The notes under the pieces are model-generated. The model saw only the letters and a program-made list of their open reading frames with translations. It had not been told where the DNA came from and searched no databases. A program made the translations under genes and the position numbers. DNA of 64,000 bases from Sphingomonas caseinilytica (lineage in GTDB: Bacteria > Pseudomonadota > Alphaproteobacteria > Sphingomonadales > Sphingomonadaceae): positions 806,001-870,000 of the forward strand of contig NZ_JAMGBA010000001.1 of NCBI RefSeq assembly GCF_023516455.1, given 5' to 3'. Shown here one piece after another: positions 39,748 through 45,255 of the stretch. How positions within the stretch are numbered: position 1 is the first letter of the stretch; each line of letters starts with the position of its first letter.

Positions 39748-40469
39748 GCGACGGGCCCGCCTCGCCATTCCGGCATCGGGCGTTCCCCAAGTGCGACGTC
39801 AACAGCCGCCGCCGCCAGCAGTCGAGTGGAATCGAGGATCGGCAGCGGCGAAACGTCCTGCGTGATCAACAGCGGGATTTCCGTGCAGACCAGTGCAACT
39901 GCATCGCATCCGTCTGCCTTCAACTTCTCGATGATCTGCACATAGGTATCGCGCGAGCTGTCTTTGAACGTTCCGAGGCACAGCTCATCCATGATGATGT
40001 CGTGGATCAGTTTGCGGTCCGTTTCGTCCGGAATTGCCCAACCCATTCCACGGCGGCCCAGCGCGCCGGGATAGACCGGTCCCGTCATCGTCCAGTTGGT
40101 GCCGAGGATGCCGACCTTCGTCCGGCCATCGCGGCGGGCCTTTTCGGCAACGACCTCGCCGATGTGGAGGCCGGGAATCGGGAAAGGCTCGCCGGGCGAC
40201 TCCATCGCGATGTGCGCGGTATTGTCGGGCAGCACGAAGAATTCCGCGCCCGCCGCGGCGATCTTCCTGGCGTCCTCCATGAAGAATTCGCGCAGGGCGG
40301 CATTGTCGCCCCGATCCCATGCCTCCAGCACCAGCGCCATTGGGCTGCACGTCATGGTGATTTCCGGGTGCATGTGCGCGCCCAGCCGCTTCACACCTTC
40401 CAGACAAGCCGTTCGAAAGCAGAGCGATGCGCCCTCGAAGCTGTGCGCCAGGATGCCAATATGTTTCAT
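39744..40469 (-). CDS. Aspartate/glutamate racemase-like protein with altered active site
   Basis: This 241-residue member of the Asp/Glu/hydantoin racemase family has GILGTNWTMTG and VALVCTEIPLL with the second catalytic Cys195. The first catalytic position, normally a cysteine (CNTAH), is Asp82 in LPDNTAH. In E. coli YgeA-type racemases the first position is Thr and one cysteine suffices for L-Asp/Glu chemistry, so a restricted activity is possible. Its ATG overlaps the glmS stop by four bases, suggesting a link to cell-wall amino sugars or amino acids. Confidence 0.8.
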   Translation of the reverse strand: MKHIGILAHSFEGASLCFRTACLEGVKRLGAHMHPEITMTCSPMALVLEAWDRGDNAALREFFMEDARKIAAAGAEFFVLPDNTAHIAMESPGEPFPIPGLHIGEVVAEKARRDGRTKVGILGTNWTMTGPVYPGALGRRGMGWAIPDETDRKLIHDIIMDELCLGTFKDSSRDTYVQIIEKLKADGCDAVALVCTEIPLLITQDVSPLPILDSTRLLAAAAVDVALGERPMPEWRGGPVA

Positions 40470-42289
40470 TCCACCGTGACGCTTTTCGCCAGGTTGCGCG
40501 GCTGGTCCACGTCGGTGCCTTTGGCCACCGCGACATGATAGGCGAGCAGCTGCACCGGTACCGCATAGACCAGCGGCGCGATTAGCGGGTGAACCTCCGG
40601 CATTTCGATCGTCGCCACACAGCCTTCGCCGGCTTCGGCGAGGCCCTTGGCATCGCTGATCAGGATAATCTTGCCACCGCGAGCGCGGACTTCCTGCATG
40701 TTACTGACGGTCTTCTCGAACAGCGGACCCGAGGGAGCCAATACGATCACTGGAACCAGGTCGTCGATCAGTGCGATCGGGCCATGCTTCATCTCTCCGG
40801 CGGCATAGCCTTCGGCGTGGATGTAGCTGATTTCCTTGAGCTTCAGCGCGCCTTCGAGCGCCATCGGATAATCGGGCCCGCGACCAAGGTAGAGGACGTC
40901 GCGCGCCGGAGCGACGAGGTGCGCCATGCCCGCTATATCCTCGTCATGATTCAGCGCCTGGTTCATCGCTTCCGGCGCTTCCCGGAGGTGCTCGACGATC
41001 TCCCGCTCTTCGTCTTCGGTCAGGCGCCCTTTGGCACGGGCGAGGTTTGCTGCGAGCGCGGCAAGGACCGACAGCTGGCAGGTAAAGGCCTTGGTCGAAG
41101 CGACGCCGATTTCCGGCCCCGCATGAGTTGGAAGCAGCAAGTCCGCCTCGCGCGCCATCGAACTGGTCGGCACATTGACGACCACTGCGATCGTCTGCCC
41201 CTCTTCCCGCGCGTGGCGCAGCGCGGCGAGCGTGTCGGCGGTCTCGCCGCTCTGGGAAATGAACAGCGCCAGGCCGCCCGGCTCCAGCACCGGCTGGCGG
41301 TAGCGGAACTCGCTGGCCACATCGATGTCGACCGGAACCCGCGCGAACTGCTCGAACCAATATTTGGCGACCATGCCGGCGTAGAAGCTGGTGCCGCAGG
41401 CAACGATGGTGACGCGATTGACCGTGCTGAGGTCGAAGTCGAAATCGGGCAGCGCGACCTTGCCTTCGAACGGCCGGACATAGCTTTGGAGGGTCTGGGC
41501 AACCACGATCGGCTGCTCGAAGATCTCCTTCTGCATGAAATGGCGATAATTGCCCTTCTCGATCCGTGTCGCCAAAGCGCCGGATTCGACAATCTCGCGG
41601 TTCACCGGCTTGTTGGCGCGGTCGTAGATCTGGATGCTGTCGCGCTTCACCACGGCCCAATCGCCCTCTTCGAGGTAGGCAATCTTTTGCGTTAGTGGCG
41701 CTAGCGCGAGCGCGTCCGAGCCGAGGTAATTTTCGCCTTCGCCATAGCCGACGGTCAGCGGCGCACCCATGCGCGCGCCGATGATCTGGTCGGGATGGTC
41801 CTTGAACAGGAAGGCGATGGCGAAGGCGCCGTGGAGGCGCGGCAGAACGGTCGCGACCGCTTCCGTCGGCGACTTCCCGTTTTCGACTTCGCGGGCGACA
41901 AGGTGAGCGACCACTTCGCTGTCGGTCTCGCTCAGGAACTTGCGGCCATCGGCGATCAATTCGTCACGAAGCGGCTTGAAGTTCTCGATGATCCCATTGT
42001 GGACCAGCGCCACCGGCCCTGCGATGTGCGGATGGGCATTGTCGACGGTCGGCGCACCATGCGTCGCCCAACGCGTGTGCGCGATTCCGACGTCACCGTG
42101 CAGCGCCTCGGCCGCCAATTGCCTGGCGAGGTTGTCGAGCTTTCCTTCGGCCCGACGACGCTCGAACTCGCCACCTTGCACCGTGCAAATACCGGCCGAG
42201 TCATAGCCGCGATACTCTAAACGCTTCAGACCGTCGTACAGGCGCTGCGCAACGGCTTCGCGACCGACGATCCCGACAATTCCACACAT
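40466..42289 (-). CDS. glmS: Glutamine-fructose-6-phosphate aminotransferase (isomerizing)
   Basis: This 607-residue enzyme makes glucosamine-6-phosphate, the first step to UDP-GlcNAc. The N-terminal Ntn amidotransferase begins at MCGIVGIVG (Cys2 nucleophile), followed by the two SIS isomerase domains (CGTSFYAGMVAKYWFEQ, SQSGETADTL) and the C-terminal LAKSVTVE. The start is set by MCGIVG; the longer open frame is not used. It follows glmU on the same strand after a one-base gap, and overlaps the racemase by four bases. Confidence 0.97.
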   Translation of the reverse strand: MCGIVGIVGREAVAQRLYDGLKRLEYRGYDSAGICTVQGGEFERRRAEGKLDNLARQLAAEALHGDVGIAHTRWATHGAPTVDNAHPHIAGPVALVHNGIIENFKPLRDELIADGRKFLSETDSEVVAHLVAREVENGKSPTEAVATVLPRLHGAFAIAFLFKDHPDQIIGARMGAPLTVGYGEGENYLGSDALALAPLTQKIAYLEEGDWAVVKRDSIQIYDRANKPVNREIVESGALATRIEKGNYRHFMQKEIFEQPIVVAQTLQSYVRPFEGKVALPDFDFDLSTVNRVTIVACGTSFYAGMVAKYWFEQFARVPVDIDVASEFRYRQPVLEPGGLALFISQSGETADTLAALRHAREEGQTIAVVVNVPTSSMAREADLLLPTHAGPEIGVASTKAFTCQLSVLAALAANLARAKGRLTEDEEREIVEHLREAPEAMNQALNHDEDIAGMAHLVAPARDVLYLGRGPDYPMALEGALKLKEISYIHAEGYAAGEMKHGPIALIDDLVPVIVLAPSGPLFEKTVSNMQEVRARGGKIILISDAKGLAEAGEGCVATIEMPEVHPLIAPLVYAVPVQLLAYHVAVAKGTDVDQPRNLAKSVTVE

Positions 42290-42290
42290 T

Positions 42291-43646
42291 CTATTTCTTG
42301 TCCTTCTTCGCCTGCTGCCGGGCCCGGAAACGCGCGGCCCAGCCTGCAAATCCCTTTTGGTCCCCGCGAGCGATCACCAATTCGTCCGCCGCGACATTCT
42401 TGGTCACCACCGAGCCGGCGCCAACGATCGCGCCGGCGCCAATGCTGACCGGAGCGACCAGTGCGCTGTTGGAGCCGATGAAGGCTCCCGCGCCGATTTC
42501 CGTCTGATACTTGCCGAACCCGTCGTAGTTGCAGGTGATCGTGCCAGCTCCGATGTTTGCTTTCTCGCCGACCGAGGCGTCGCCGATATAGCTAAGGTGG
42601 TTGGCCTTGGCCCCTACGCCAAGCTCCGCCTTCTTCACCTCGACGAAATTGCCGACCTTTGCACCTTCGCCAAGTACCGTGCCGGGACGAAGCCGCGCAA
42701 ATGGCCCGACTTCGCAACCTGTGGCGATCACGGCGCCTTCGATATGCGAAAAGGCGCGGATAGTCGCACCGTCGGCGATCTTCACCCCCGGGCCGAACAC
42801 GACATGCGGTTCGATCGTGCAGTCCCGGCCAAGTTCGGTGTCAGCCGAAAACCAGACGCTTTCCGGGTCGATCAGGGTCGCGCCCTGCTCCAGCGCCTGC
42901 CAGCGGCGGCGCGTCTGCCAATCCTCTTCCAGTGCGGCCAGCTCGGCGCGGCTGTTGACGCCTGCGGTTTCAAACGCTTCGCCCTCGATCGCGACCGGAT
43001 TGCGGCCCTCGTCCTTGGCGATCATGACAATATCCGGGAGATAATATTCCCCCGCGGCATTGGCGTTGCCGACCTTGGCCAGCCAGCGGAACAGGTCGTT
43101 CGATCCGACCGCCATCATTCCCGAATTGACCAGCTTTACCGCACGTTCGGCTTCGTTGGCGTCCTTAAACTCGACCATCTTCGAGATGTGATCGCCTTCG
43201 CCCAGGATGACGCGGCCGTAGGTCTTGCCGTCCGCAGGCGAGCTCGCAAGAACGACAACGCCGGGGTCGTCCTTCGCGGCCAAGCGGTCGAGCATCGCCC
43301 GCAACGTTTCGCGCGTGACGAACGGCGTATCACCATAGAGGATAAGCACCGGCCCTTCGGATCCGCGAAGCGCCTCCTCGGCCATCTGCACGGCATGGCC
43401 GGTACCCTTTTGTTCGGCCTGCAATGCGGTTGATACGCCGTGCCCCTCAAGCGCCTTCTCAAGCTGCTCGCGGCCCTTGCCGACGACGATGACACTGCGC
43501 TTGGCGCCCATCTCCTCAACCGTCGCGAGCAAATGCATCAGCATCGGCCTGCCGGCGATCGGATGGAGAACCTTATGGGTATCGGAGCGCATCCGCGTGC
43601 CCTGCCCCGCGGCCAGCACGACGACCGAGAAATCTGCCTGATTCAT
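42291..43646 (-). CDS. glmU: Bifunctional UDP-GlcNAc pyrophosphorylase / glucosamine-1-P acetyltransferase
   Basis: This 451-residue enzyme has an N-terminal nucleotidyltransferase domain (VVLAAGQGTRMRS, LILYGDTPFV) and a C-terminal left-handed beta-helix acetyltransferase with hexapeptide repeats (GPGVKIADGATIRAFSHIEGAVIATGCEVGPFARLRPGT and IGAGAFIGSNSALVAPVSIGAGAIVG). It supplies UDP-GlcNAc for peptidoglycan and LPS. First gene of glmU-glmS-racemase. Confidence 0.97.
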   Translation of the reverse strand: MNQADFSVVVLAAGQGTRMRSDTHKVLHPIAGRPMLMHLLATVEEMGAKRSVIVVGKGREQLEKALEGHGVSTALQAEQKGTGHAVQMAEEALRGSEGPVLILYGDTPFVTRETLRAMLDRLAAKDDPGVVVLASSPADGKTYGRVILGEGDHISKMVEFKDANEAERAVKLVNSGMMAVGSNDLFRWLAKVGNANAAGEYYLPDIVMIAKDEGRNPVAIEGEAFETAGVNSRAELAALEEDWQTRRRWQALEQGATLIDPESVWFSADTELGRDCTIEPHVVFGPGVKIADGATIRAFSHIEGAVIATGCEVGPFARLRPGTVLGEGAKVGNFVEVKKAELGVGAKANHLSYIGDASVGEKANIGAGTITCNYDGFGKYQTEIGAGAFIGSNSALVAPVSIGAGAIVGAGSVVTKNVAADELVIARGDQKGFAGWAARFRARQQAKKDKK

Positions 43647-43687
43647 GGCTTGTGCAATCGCACGCTCTTCATGTCTTTGCCATAGAA

Positions 43688-43717
43688 GAAGGGCCCCGGC
43701 GTGGTGCGGGGCCCTTC
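43688..43717 (-). terminator. Hairpin terminator after the H1-tail-like gene
   Basis: An 11-bp perfect inverted repeat (GAAGGGCCCCG at 43688-43698 and CGGGGCCCTTC at 43707-43717) with an 8-base loop lies 18 bases past the stop of the minus-strand H1-tail-like gene and is followed there by TTCTATG. It separates that gene from glmU. Confidence 0.7.
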
Positions 43718-43735
43718 CGGAACATTTCGCCGTTC

Positions 43736-44248
43736 CTAGCTTGCCGCAGGCGCCTTCGGCTTGGCCGGTGCGCGCTTGCGTGCACCAGCGCTCGAACGGC
43801 GCTTGGCCGTTGTAGCAGACTTGGTCGCCGCTTTGGGCCTAGCGGCTGCCTTGGCCTTCGTCGCAGGGGCCTTGCGGGTCGCGCCAGTCTTACGCGGTGC
43901 AGCGCGCTTGGCGACTGGCTTGGATGACGAGGTGGTGACCTCATCGACCCACTTGCCCGAAAGGACGCGCTGAGCCGCGTCAGCGACTGCCTCGGCAATC
44001 AGCGACCCGAGCTTGGACGCGTTGGTCATCATGTTGGTCGCCGCCTGGCTGGCGCTGTCGGCCGCGTCGAGGCCCGCGTCGCGGATCGCTTTGCGTGCCT
44101 TCGGGCTGGCGGCGATCGCCGCCGCTGCAGCCGTCAATCCGGCCGCCAGCATTTCGCGGCTCATTGCCGCCTTGGCGAGTTTGTCGAGTGTAGCTTTGTT
44201 GGAACTGGTGCTGCCGGTTTTTCCGCGGCTGCTCGAAGTCTTGGCCAT
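43736..44248 (-). CDS. Ala/Lys-rich protein with histone-H1-like tail
   Basis: This 170-residue protein has a Ser/Thr/Lys-rich start (AKTSSSRGKTGSTSSNKATL), a helical Ala-rich middle with LLAAGLTAAAAAIAAS-like segments, and a C-terminal half of alternating Lys, Ala, Pro and Arg (APRKTGATRKAPATKAKAAA) resembling histone H1/HctB-type DNA-binding tails. The ATG at 44248 has AAGGAGG at ideal spacing; the longer open frame is not used. It may be a nucleoid- or polymer-granule-associated protein; phaR is nearby, and some PHA-granule proteins (PhaF) share this tail (inference). It lies downstream of the leader-ORF terminator. Confidence 0.7.
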   Translation of the reverse strand: MAKTSSSRGKTGSTSSNKATLDKLAKAAMSREMLAAGLTAAAAAIAASPKARKAIRDAGLDAADSASQAATNMMTNASKLGSLIAEAVADAAQRVLSGKWVDEVTTSSSKPVAKRAAPRKTGATRKAPATKAKAAARPKAATKSATTAKRRSSAGARKRAPAKPKAPAAS

Positions 44249-44330
44249 TGCTGCCTCCTTATTCGATCTGACCGCCATAGCGGCTAATTCCCGAACCGGT
44301 TCCGAAATAGTGCAGAAAATCGCCAAGTAA

Positions 44331-44363
44331 AAGGGAGCTGTCGCACCACACGACAGCCCCCTT
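44331..44363 (-). terminator. Intrinsic terminator between leader ORF and the H1-tail gene
   Basis: AAGGGAGCTGTCG (44331-44343) and CGACAGCCCCCTT (44351-44363) pair over 13 positions with one mismatch around a 7-base loop. On the minus strand the stem ends in CCCTTTTACTT, giving a usable U-run. It lies 53 bases after the 18-codon leader ORF and 83 bases before the H1-tail-like gene, the layout of a transcription attenuator. Confidence 0.75.
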
Positions 44364-44415
44364 CAACATGGTCAGCGACCGGACGTTCTAGCCCGGAAGG
44401 ACAAAGAATGGCTGG

Positions 44416-44472
44416 TTAGGCCATCACCTTCCAAGCGAACAGGACCGACCTCTCTGCTGAACCATGAGACAT
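44416..44472 (-). CDS. 18-residue leader ORF with extended perfect Shine-Dalgarno
   Basis: ATG at 44472 opens an ORF of 18 codons (MSHGSAERSVLFAWKVMA) ending in TAA. The 15 bases before its start, GAAAGGAGGTGATCC (44488 to 44474), are complementary to the known 3' end of bacterial 16S rRNA over their whole length, and GGAGG is seven bases from the ATG. It is too short for normal gene calling. No family is recognised. The extreme ribosome-binding site, a sequestering partner upstream and a terminator downstream argue for a translated regulatory leader peptide rather than chance. Confidence 0.55.
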   Translation of the reverse strand: MSHGSAERSVLFAWKVMA

Positions 44473-44473
44473 C

Positions 44474-44530
44474 GGATCACCTCCTTTCGCTGCTTGATTG
44501 CCAACACAGCATGTTGTGGTTCGAGGTGAT
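44474..44530 (-). promoter_or_regulatory. Leader structure able to hide the Shine-Dalgarno
   Basis: On the minus strand ATCACCTC (44530-44523) is exactly complementary to GAGGTGAT (44483-44476) inside the leader-ORF ribosome-binding site. The eight-pair stem would close a 39-base loop that itself contains a small hairpin (CAACA at 44516-44512 with TGTTG at 44506-44502). ATCACCTC is also part of the 16S rRNA 3'-terminal sequence, so it acts as a mimic of the ribosome's own binding partner. No promoter could be identified upstream. Confidence 0.5.
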
Positions 44531-44727
44531 AAACAAGACTTGTAATTGTGGTCGGTTTAGACAATCTTCGTTGCTTCGCGCCGCCCGGCCGACCCTCCAT
44601 TCTCCAGAGATTACCTCAAGAATCCGCCTTTCGGACTCGATGCGGCGGGCCATTATTCGCGCCGCGCGGGGTGTGAGATGATCACCGCCACAACAGCGCC
44701 GGCGATCGAATCGACGGGCGCGTCGAA
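44531..44727. other. Intergenic stretch with no supported feature
   Basis: This is the remainder of the 479-base gap between phaR and the H1-tail-like gene. It must hold the promoter of the minus-strand leader transcript, but I see only weak -35-like TTGTCT and no convincing -10. An 84-codon minus-strand frame crosses it but has no ribosome-binding site or recognisable composition. Confidence 0.5.
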
Positions 44728-45255
44728 TCACTTGCCGAGCTTGTCGACCTTCGCCTGGAGCGCTGCCAATTCGGCCTTCAGCTTGGCGAGCTCGTCTGCC
44801 GGGCCGTCGTTCTGAGCCGGAGCCTGCGCCTTTTTCCCGGTCATGGCCGACGCTGCTTCTTCAAACATCGCCATGTTCCGCTTGGCGAGATCGGCGAACA
44901 TGTTCTGACCAAAGGCGCCGGCCATAGCCTGCTGGTTTTTCTGGAACGCATCCATCGCCGCTTCAAGGTAGGTTGGCACGGCGCCTTGCATCTGCCCGCC
45001 ATACAAGCCGATCAGCTGGCGCAGGAAATTGACGGGCAGCATGGTCGACCCGCGAGACTCCTCGTCGACGATGATCTGGGTCAGCACTTGATGCGTGATA
45101 TCCTCGCCGCTTTTCGCGTCGACGACTTCGAAATCCCGGCCTTCGCGAATCATGGCGGCCAAGCGGTCAAGCGTGATGTAGCTGCTGCTCTCGGTGTCAT
45201 AGAGCCGCCGGTTGGCGTACTTCTTGATAGTGACCTTTGCAGCGCCCTTGACCAT
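44728..45255 (-). CDS. phaR: Polyhydroxyalkanoate synthesis repressor PhaR
   Basis: This 175-residue regulator senses PHA granules and represses phasin genes. The N-terminal DNA-binding domain has the invariant TIKKYANRRLYDTESSSYITLDRLAAMIREG, then a PHA-accumulation regulator domain (QLIGLYGGQMQGAVPTYLEAAMDAF) and a C-terminal coiled coil (ELAKLKAELAALQAKVDKL). No PHA synthase or phasin gene is adjacent here. Confidence 0.95.
   Translation of the reverse strand: MVKGAAKVTIKKYANRRLYDTESSSYITLDRLAAMIREGRDFEVVDAKSGEDITHQVLTQIIVDEESRGSTMLPVNFLRQLIGLYGGQMQGAVPTYLEAAMDAFQKNQQAMAGAFGQNMFADLAKRNMAMFEEAASAMTGKKAQAPAQNDGPADELAKLKAELAALQAKVDKLGK

Follow-up and report, generated by a model that had tools for sequence, protein, structure and literature searches.

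The minus strand of the window, the 64,000-nucleotide stretch of Sphingomonas caseinilytica DNA analyzed here, carries a small RNA element that we identify, with very little doubt, as a stand-alone relative of the Rfam family CC2171 (RF01867). Our best reading, which we hold with reasonable confidence, is that this RNA has been selected for being translated and is a stand-alone mini-mRNA of the CC2171 type that may be gated by a long-range helix, P1.

All features described below lie on the minus strand. An extended Shine-Dalgarno sequence (SD) of 15 nt, GAAAGGAGGTGATCC (44488-44474), is complementary to the 3' end of 16S rRNA and is separated by 1 nt from the ATG at 44472. This ATG opens an 18-codon ORF, MSHGSAERSVLFAWKVMA (44472-44416), which ends with TAA at 44416 and whose frame and length are constrained in homologues. 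The preliminary description had proposed both the ORF and the extended SD, and both are present in the sequence and conserved in related genomes. It had also proposed a nested hairpin over the last ORF codons, and this structure is found as well, with ATGGC (44424-44420) facing GCCAT (44412-44408). In the minimum-energy fold, helix P2, formed by GCTTGGAAGG with CCTTCCGGGC (44391-44437), encloses the nested ATGGCC/GGCCAT region together with the stop codon, and pairing-preserving changes in P2 were seen in relatives by eye, uncounted. A GGAGCAACCTC-like mini-hairpin near the ORF end was likewise noticed by eye in another clade (L092, L093, L097, L233, L235, L236, L241, and L242). For the terminator of the preliminary description, a terminator-like hairpin followed by Ts appears in the folds at about 44363-44328; it is absent from the consensus terminator scan, which lists only the nested hairpin (44425-44407) and does so at chance level (2 sites in the region versus a shuffled mean of 1.9). 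The sequences of the terminal hairpin vary among relatives. In the homologue folds, only 3 of 120 were without any terminator, the terminator having been taken as the strongest hairpin, a rule that favors a find. As a whole, the strand from 44545 to 44320 folds better than all of 200 shuffles (z -4.0).

The preliminary description had not recognized the element. A permissive Rfam scan of 44250-44730 now places it with RF01867, a Caulobacter sRNA family, through an alignment (44332-44496) that covers the consensus from end to end (model positions 1-159 of 159). Its score of 45.8 bits (E 1.7e-8) is below the gathering cut-off of 75 bits. At curated thresholds, Rfam reports only a tRNA over the window, and no other family reached gathering in 17 of 20 homologous loci scanned. 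The element has the 5' module and the terminal hairpin of CC2171. As to the closing helix, P1, complementary arms that covary in the family are present, while the minimum-energy fold of the window copy itself is without P1. The element differs from CC2171 in its score and in its ATG start codon (GTG in the consensus). Rfam types the family as an sRNA gene; the comparison made here points instead to a translated RNA. Passages of the Rfam 15 paper list the CC2171 family, and a Mesorhizobium paper, in the part consulted, lists MH_s33 as CC2171. Among the openly licensed papers listed by our searches, we found no study of the function of CC2171/RF01867.

The RF01867 model matched 69 of 289 alphaproteobacterial genomes at E<=0.01, and nine of these matches were over the cut-off. 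Among 14 control genomes, it matched Caulobacter and also Deinobacterium, which lies outside the class; at E<=1, 5 control genomes outside the class matched. The Deinobacterium match is presumably due to chance, and since this control responded, some of the weak hits within the class may be chance matches too. When no more than 2 mismatches were allowed, a 22-mer from the start region occurred in 91 of 385 genomes, and the reversed-control 22-mer had no hit among the matches listed. Hosts recovered by the pattern search (at least 119 stretches) include Sphingomonas, Sphingobium, Novosphingobium, Erythrobacter, Brevundimonas, and Bosea, to which Methylobacterium, Microvirga, Kaistia, Azospirillum, and Roseococcus are added among the matches listed. 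One match (L163) comes from a contig whose label reads Candidatus Kuenenia stuttgartiensis, the sole non-alphaproteobacterial genus noticed among the matches listed, and this contig is likely mis-binned. Closer to the window, a DNA match at E<=0.01 was obtained in 78 of 149 relatives. Across 60 copies of the window type from the same family, the core (44497-44445) matches the window at 79-100% identity, with a median of 91% and with 38 of the copies at 90% or more. Conservation of this kind speaks against a chance arrangement. The pattern-found sets (the stretches just mentioned, at least 119 in number, and the 123 homologues considered below) require a near-exact start region, and the conservation of MSH in them is therefore biased. 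The sets of 123 and 42 homologues were thinned at 72% identity.

A second copy in the genome of origin was also considered. The best other RF01867 match there (28.1 bits, E 5e-4) was taken as chance, and no SD-start module with up to 6 mismatches was found at that locus. Several genomes of the same genus contain a second, MSHC-type copy with the SD GAAAGGAGGTGGTC (L034, L036, L041-L046, and L052-L054), which in some of them lies 4-6 kb from the first copy; no MSHC-type copy with this SD was found in the genome of origin.

The 15-mer SD is unique in its own genome, where the exact 12-mer AAGGAGGTGATC is likewise found a single time. No 16S gene could be found in the assembly, which is rated 100% complete; the rRNA was probably left unassembled or withheld. 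The exact 16S 3' end GGATCACCTCCTTTC was recovered in 1 of 41 genomes searched, a member of the same genus. When G-U pairs are allowed, the SD can pair with the 16S end at 15 positions in 36 of 42 homologues, at 14 in five, and at 12 in one, although this conservation is partly built in because the loci were found with a model that contains the SD and were re-found with an SD pattern. Position 12 is mostly wobble-compatible (A in 35, G in 6, and C in 1 of these homologues). In 41 of the 42, a single nucleotide separates the 15-mer from the start codon. Predicted accessibility of the SD is middling, exceeding 0.5 in 55 of 117 homologues. According to passages of PMC13009471, S. aureus forms extended SD helices close to the start codon, which in E. 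coli are hindered by bS21. The element resembles the S. aureus case in that the SD-antiSD helix would extend towards the start codon, and differs from it in that the SD is 15 nt long, recurs in one RNA family of another class, and is predicted from sequence.

The argument for translation comes mainly from the length of the ORF. In a sample that was blind to the ORF (49 loci found with the Rfam model and reduced to 42 non-redundant ones, with the window copy left out and the start chosen without regard to the ORF), the frame closes at 18-35 codons in 42 of 42 homologues. When a range of 14-35 codons is applied to the same sample, the other two frames close within it in only 12 and 10 cases; for shuffled sequences, the number averages 14.5 (sd 3.0) and never exceeds 25 in 1000 runs. 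The start codons in this sample are ATG (22), GTG (18), and TTG (2). The 123 non-redundant homologues found by pattern behave in the same way, with the in-frame ORF closing at 15-27 codons in 119 of them. The other frames do so in 19 and 28 cases, and shuffling gave 28.6 on average, with at most 45 in 500 runs. The in-frame exceptions are one ORF of 14 codons, one of 33 codons, and two that run through the stretch read with no stop. ORF length is also less variable than the part that follows the stop codon (CV 0.14 versus 0.33 in 117 homologues), where insertions are found, for example in L032 and L039. The avoidance of early stops in one frame, followed by later stops, is hard to explain without translation, and we regard it as highly probable that the ORF is translated. 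On comparative evidence alone, the element thus appears to possess the translated small ORF that marks a dual-function sRNA. In the part consulted of Schrader 2014, most Caulobacter ncRNAs are placed in untranslated regions and two previously predicted ncRNAs are described as translated, while passages on Ribo-seq in Sinorhizobium (PMC10117765) assign 33% of 54 new sORFs to annotated sRNAs. The rnTrpL/peTrpL system of Sinorhizobium, an example of dual-function or attenuator-derived RNAs, is similar to the element in that a short ORF resides on an alphaproteobacterial small RNA. In contrast to rnTrpL, the small RNA described here is not tied to one downstream gene and has a 15-nt SD, whereas passages of PMC10117765 describe rnTrpL as leaderless.

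Codons 3-7 of the ORF can pair with a stretch located just before the terminator, forming the helix that we call P1. Its 5' arm here consists of CATGG (44466-44462) and TCAGC (44460-44456), which fall in codons 3-6, and its 3' arm of GCTGA (44376-44372) and CCATG (44371-44367). Across the family, this helix covaries. Sequence variants of P1 include CATTGTC/GACAATG in the Caulobacter-like type and GTGA/TCAC elsewhere. In 37 anchored rows, 147 of 185 positions are paired, against a shuffled mean of 110 (sd 5.2, maximum 126, 2000 shuffles), and the 23 distinct arm pairs show 81 of 115 positions paired, against 59.9 in shuffles (maximum 74). These rows are the 37 of 48 that could be anchored without using complementarity (11 could not be anchored, and L072 was left out), and pairs were counted by script on the anchored arms because a MAFFT alignment of 39 loci misplaced the 3' arms. 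In 113 of 120 cases, pairing is better between native arms than between swapped ones. With at least 4 expected pairs as the criterion, P1 is predicted in 78 of 117 homologue folds; the minimum-energy fold of the window copy reaches -81.3 kcal/mol, versus -73.3 kcal/mol when P1 is forced. It is possible that P1 gates translation, and we propose this only tentatively.

Upstream of the element, we infer a promoter (44536-44508) from the conservation of two hexamers, TTGTTT (44536-44531) and CATGCT (44513-44508), which are separated by a 17-nt spacer and keep their spacing; a sigma-70 consensus scan called no promoter there. The stretch CAAGNCTTG, which ends in the TTG of the -35-like hexamer, occurs in 47 of the 60 window-type copies from the same family, and in 41 of these 47 it is followed 16-17 nt further on by CATNNN, itself 19-21 nt before GAAAGG. 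Under this layout, transcription would start near 44502-44500, close to the start of the Rfam model. Of the 60 window-type copies, 47 have a palindrome, CAAG-N-CTTG (44543-44533 here), that overlaps the -35-like hexamer; 0 of 12 copies of the other type have it. This palindrome may be an operator.

This layout bears on the upstream decoy of the preliminary description, in which ATCACCTC (44530-44523) was thought to hide the SD. The 8-mer falls within the spacer and is probably not transcribed, since it lies between the conserved promoter-like hexamers. It is found exactly in 1 of 220 homologous places, namely the one in the window (shuffled mean 0.3). A match at 7 of its 8 letters occurs in 11 of the 220, as compared with 6.6 in shuffles; these places were not de-duplicated, and some genomes enter under two sources. 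The ORF and the SD are thus conserved in relatives, the decoy is not, and the decoy switch was rejected.

The decoy formed part of a wider proposal, that of a translation-coupled attenuator acting on the next gene, which encodes a lysine/alanine-rich, H1-tail-like protein. From 40466 to 45255 on the minus strand, we take the order to be a phaR-like gene, the small RNA, the H1-like gene, a glmU-like gene, and a glmS-like gene. An H1-like gene does follow on the same strand here and, in a first pass, in at least 25 of 217 places, which make up part of the close relatives; a role in cis would produce this pattern as well. However, the downstream neighbors called in 201 of 206 homologous places fall into 121 clusters, with 101 on the same strand and 100 on the opposite strand, and these counts are rough because our home-made gene calls admitted antisense shadow ORFs and placed the downstream gene of the window's own genome on the wrong strand. 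The conserved same-strand target expected of an attenuator is not seen in this sample. With neighbors so varied on both strands, attenuation of the H1-like gene is disfavored, and with the decoy unconserved and probably outside the transcript, we consider this proposal extremely improbable. From its surroundings in the genomes compared, we read the small RNA as what appears to be an independent transcript. It may sense translation or the availability of ribosomes, as the preliminary description suggested.

Several other explanations deserve consideration. The element could be a plain mRNA for a functional micropeptide, with the RNA structure merely protecting or tuning it. A constrained reading frame would be expected in that case, and Ser2 is kept in 39 of 42 homologues by means of four different codons. 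On the other hand, 55 independent close pairs show nearly equal changes at codon positions 1, 2, and 3 (79/85/77), the dN/dS-like ratio is 0.77 in frame, intermediate between the 1.12 and 0.59 of the other frames, and the peptides differ widely between clades. By the first two of these measures, no selection on the peptide was detected past the first residues. A comparison with type I toxins gave a mean hydrophobic fraction of 0.41 for 120 peptides, with no membrane stretch recognized by eye. Across alphaproteobacteria, the comparison says that the length of the ORF is preserved and that the peptide apparently is not, and we view the micropeptide explanation as unlikely. The Rfam type, the terminator-like end, and the stand-alone position would all suit a classical base-pairing sRNA that uses its SD-like stretch for pairing and has an ORF only by accident. 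Such an sRNA would not account for an ORF whose length is constrained in one frame only, or for a start codon that keeps its distance from the 15-mer in all but one of the 42 homologues, and we judge it very unlikely. It could also be imagined that the 15-nt SD traps 30S subunits and holds them while P1 blocks the start, as might be suggested by an SD whose pairing can reach to 1 nt from the start codon and by a helix beginning at codon 3. A trap does not need a closed ORF of fixed length, and the middling accessibility predicted for the SD fits it poorly; this explanation appears highly improbable to us.

The reading that we prefer, an RNA selected for being translated and gated by P1, suggests the following order of events, which, like any role of the small RNA in trans, is inferred. 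The strong SD would load a 30S subunit although P1 starts at codon 3, perhaps before the 3' arm of P1 has been transcribed. Elongation would then melt P1 and P2. With an ORF of at least 18 codons, the terminating ribosome would clear the 5' arm of P1, and P1 could close again. Ribosomes would thereby cross the RNA roughly one by one, each crossing altering the shape of the RNA, and translation might set how stable the RNA is or how far its 3' half is exposed to partners. As the part of the SD able to pair with 16S rRNA ends only 1 nt short of the start, selectivity for the state of the ribosome is also conceivable. In this extension, which is rooted in the passages of PMC13009471 on extended SDs and bS21, the element would be a class-wide gauge of ribosome state: only ribosomes with a fully free 16S 3' end, for example those lacking bS21, would initiate well, and their passage through a peptide-neutral ORF would open P1 and switch a regulatory 3' half. 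We consider this gauge distinctly unlikely.

What is new here is that the CC2171-like family, judged by its conservation pattern, behaves as a translated mini-mRNA. An sRNA family catalogued in Caulobacter and spread through alphaproteobacteria contains a length-constrained ORF with a peptide apparently free to vary, and this combination suggests that being translated is the function, in a setting other than that of a classical attenuator. Other 'non-coding' families may be worth checking for length-conserved, peptide-neutral ORFs.
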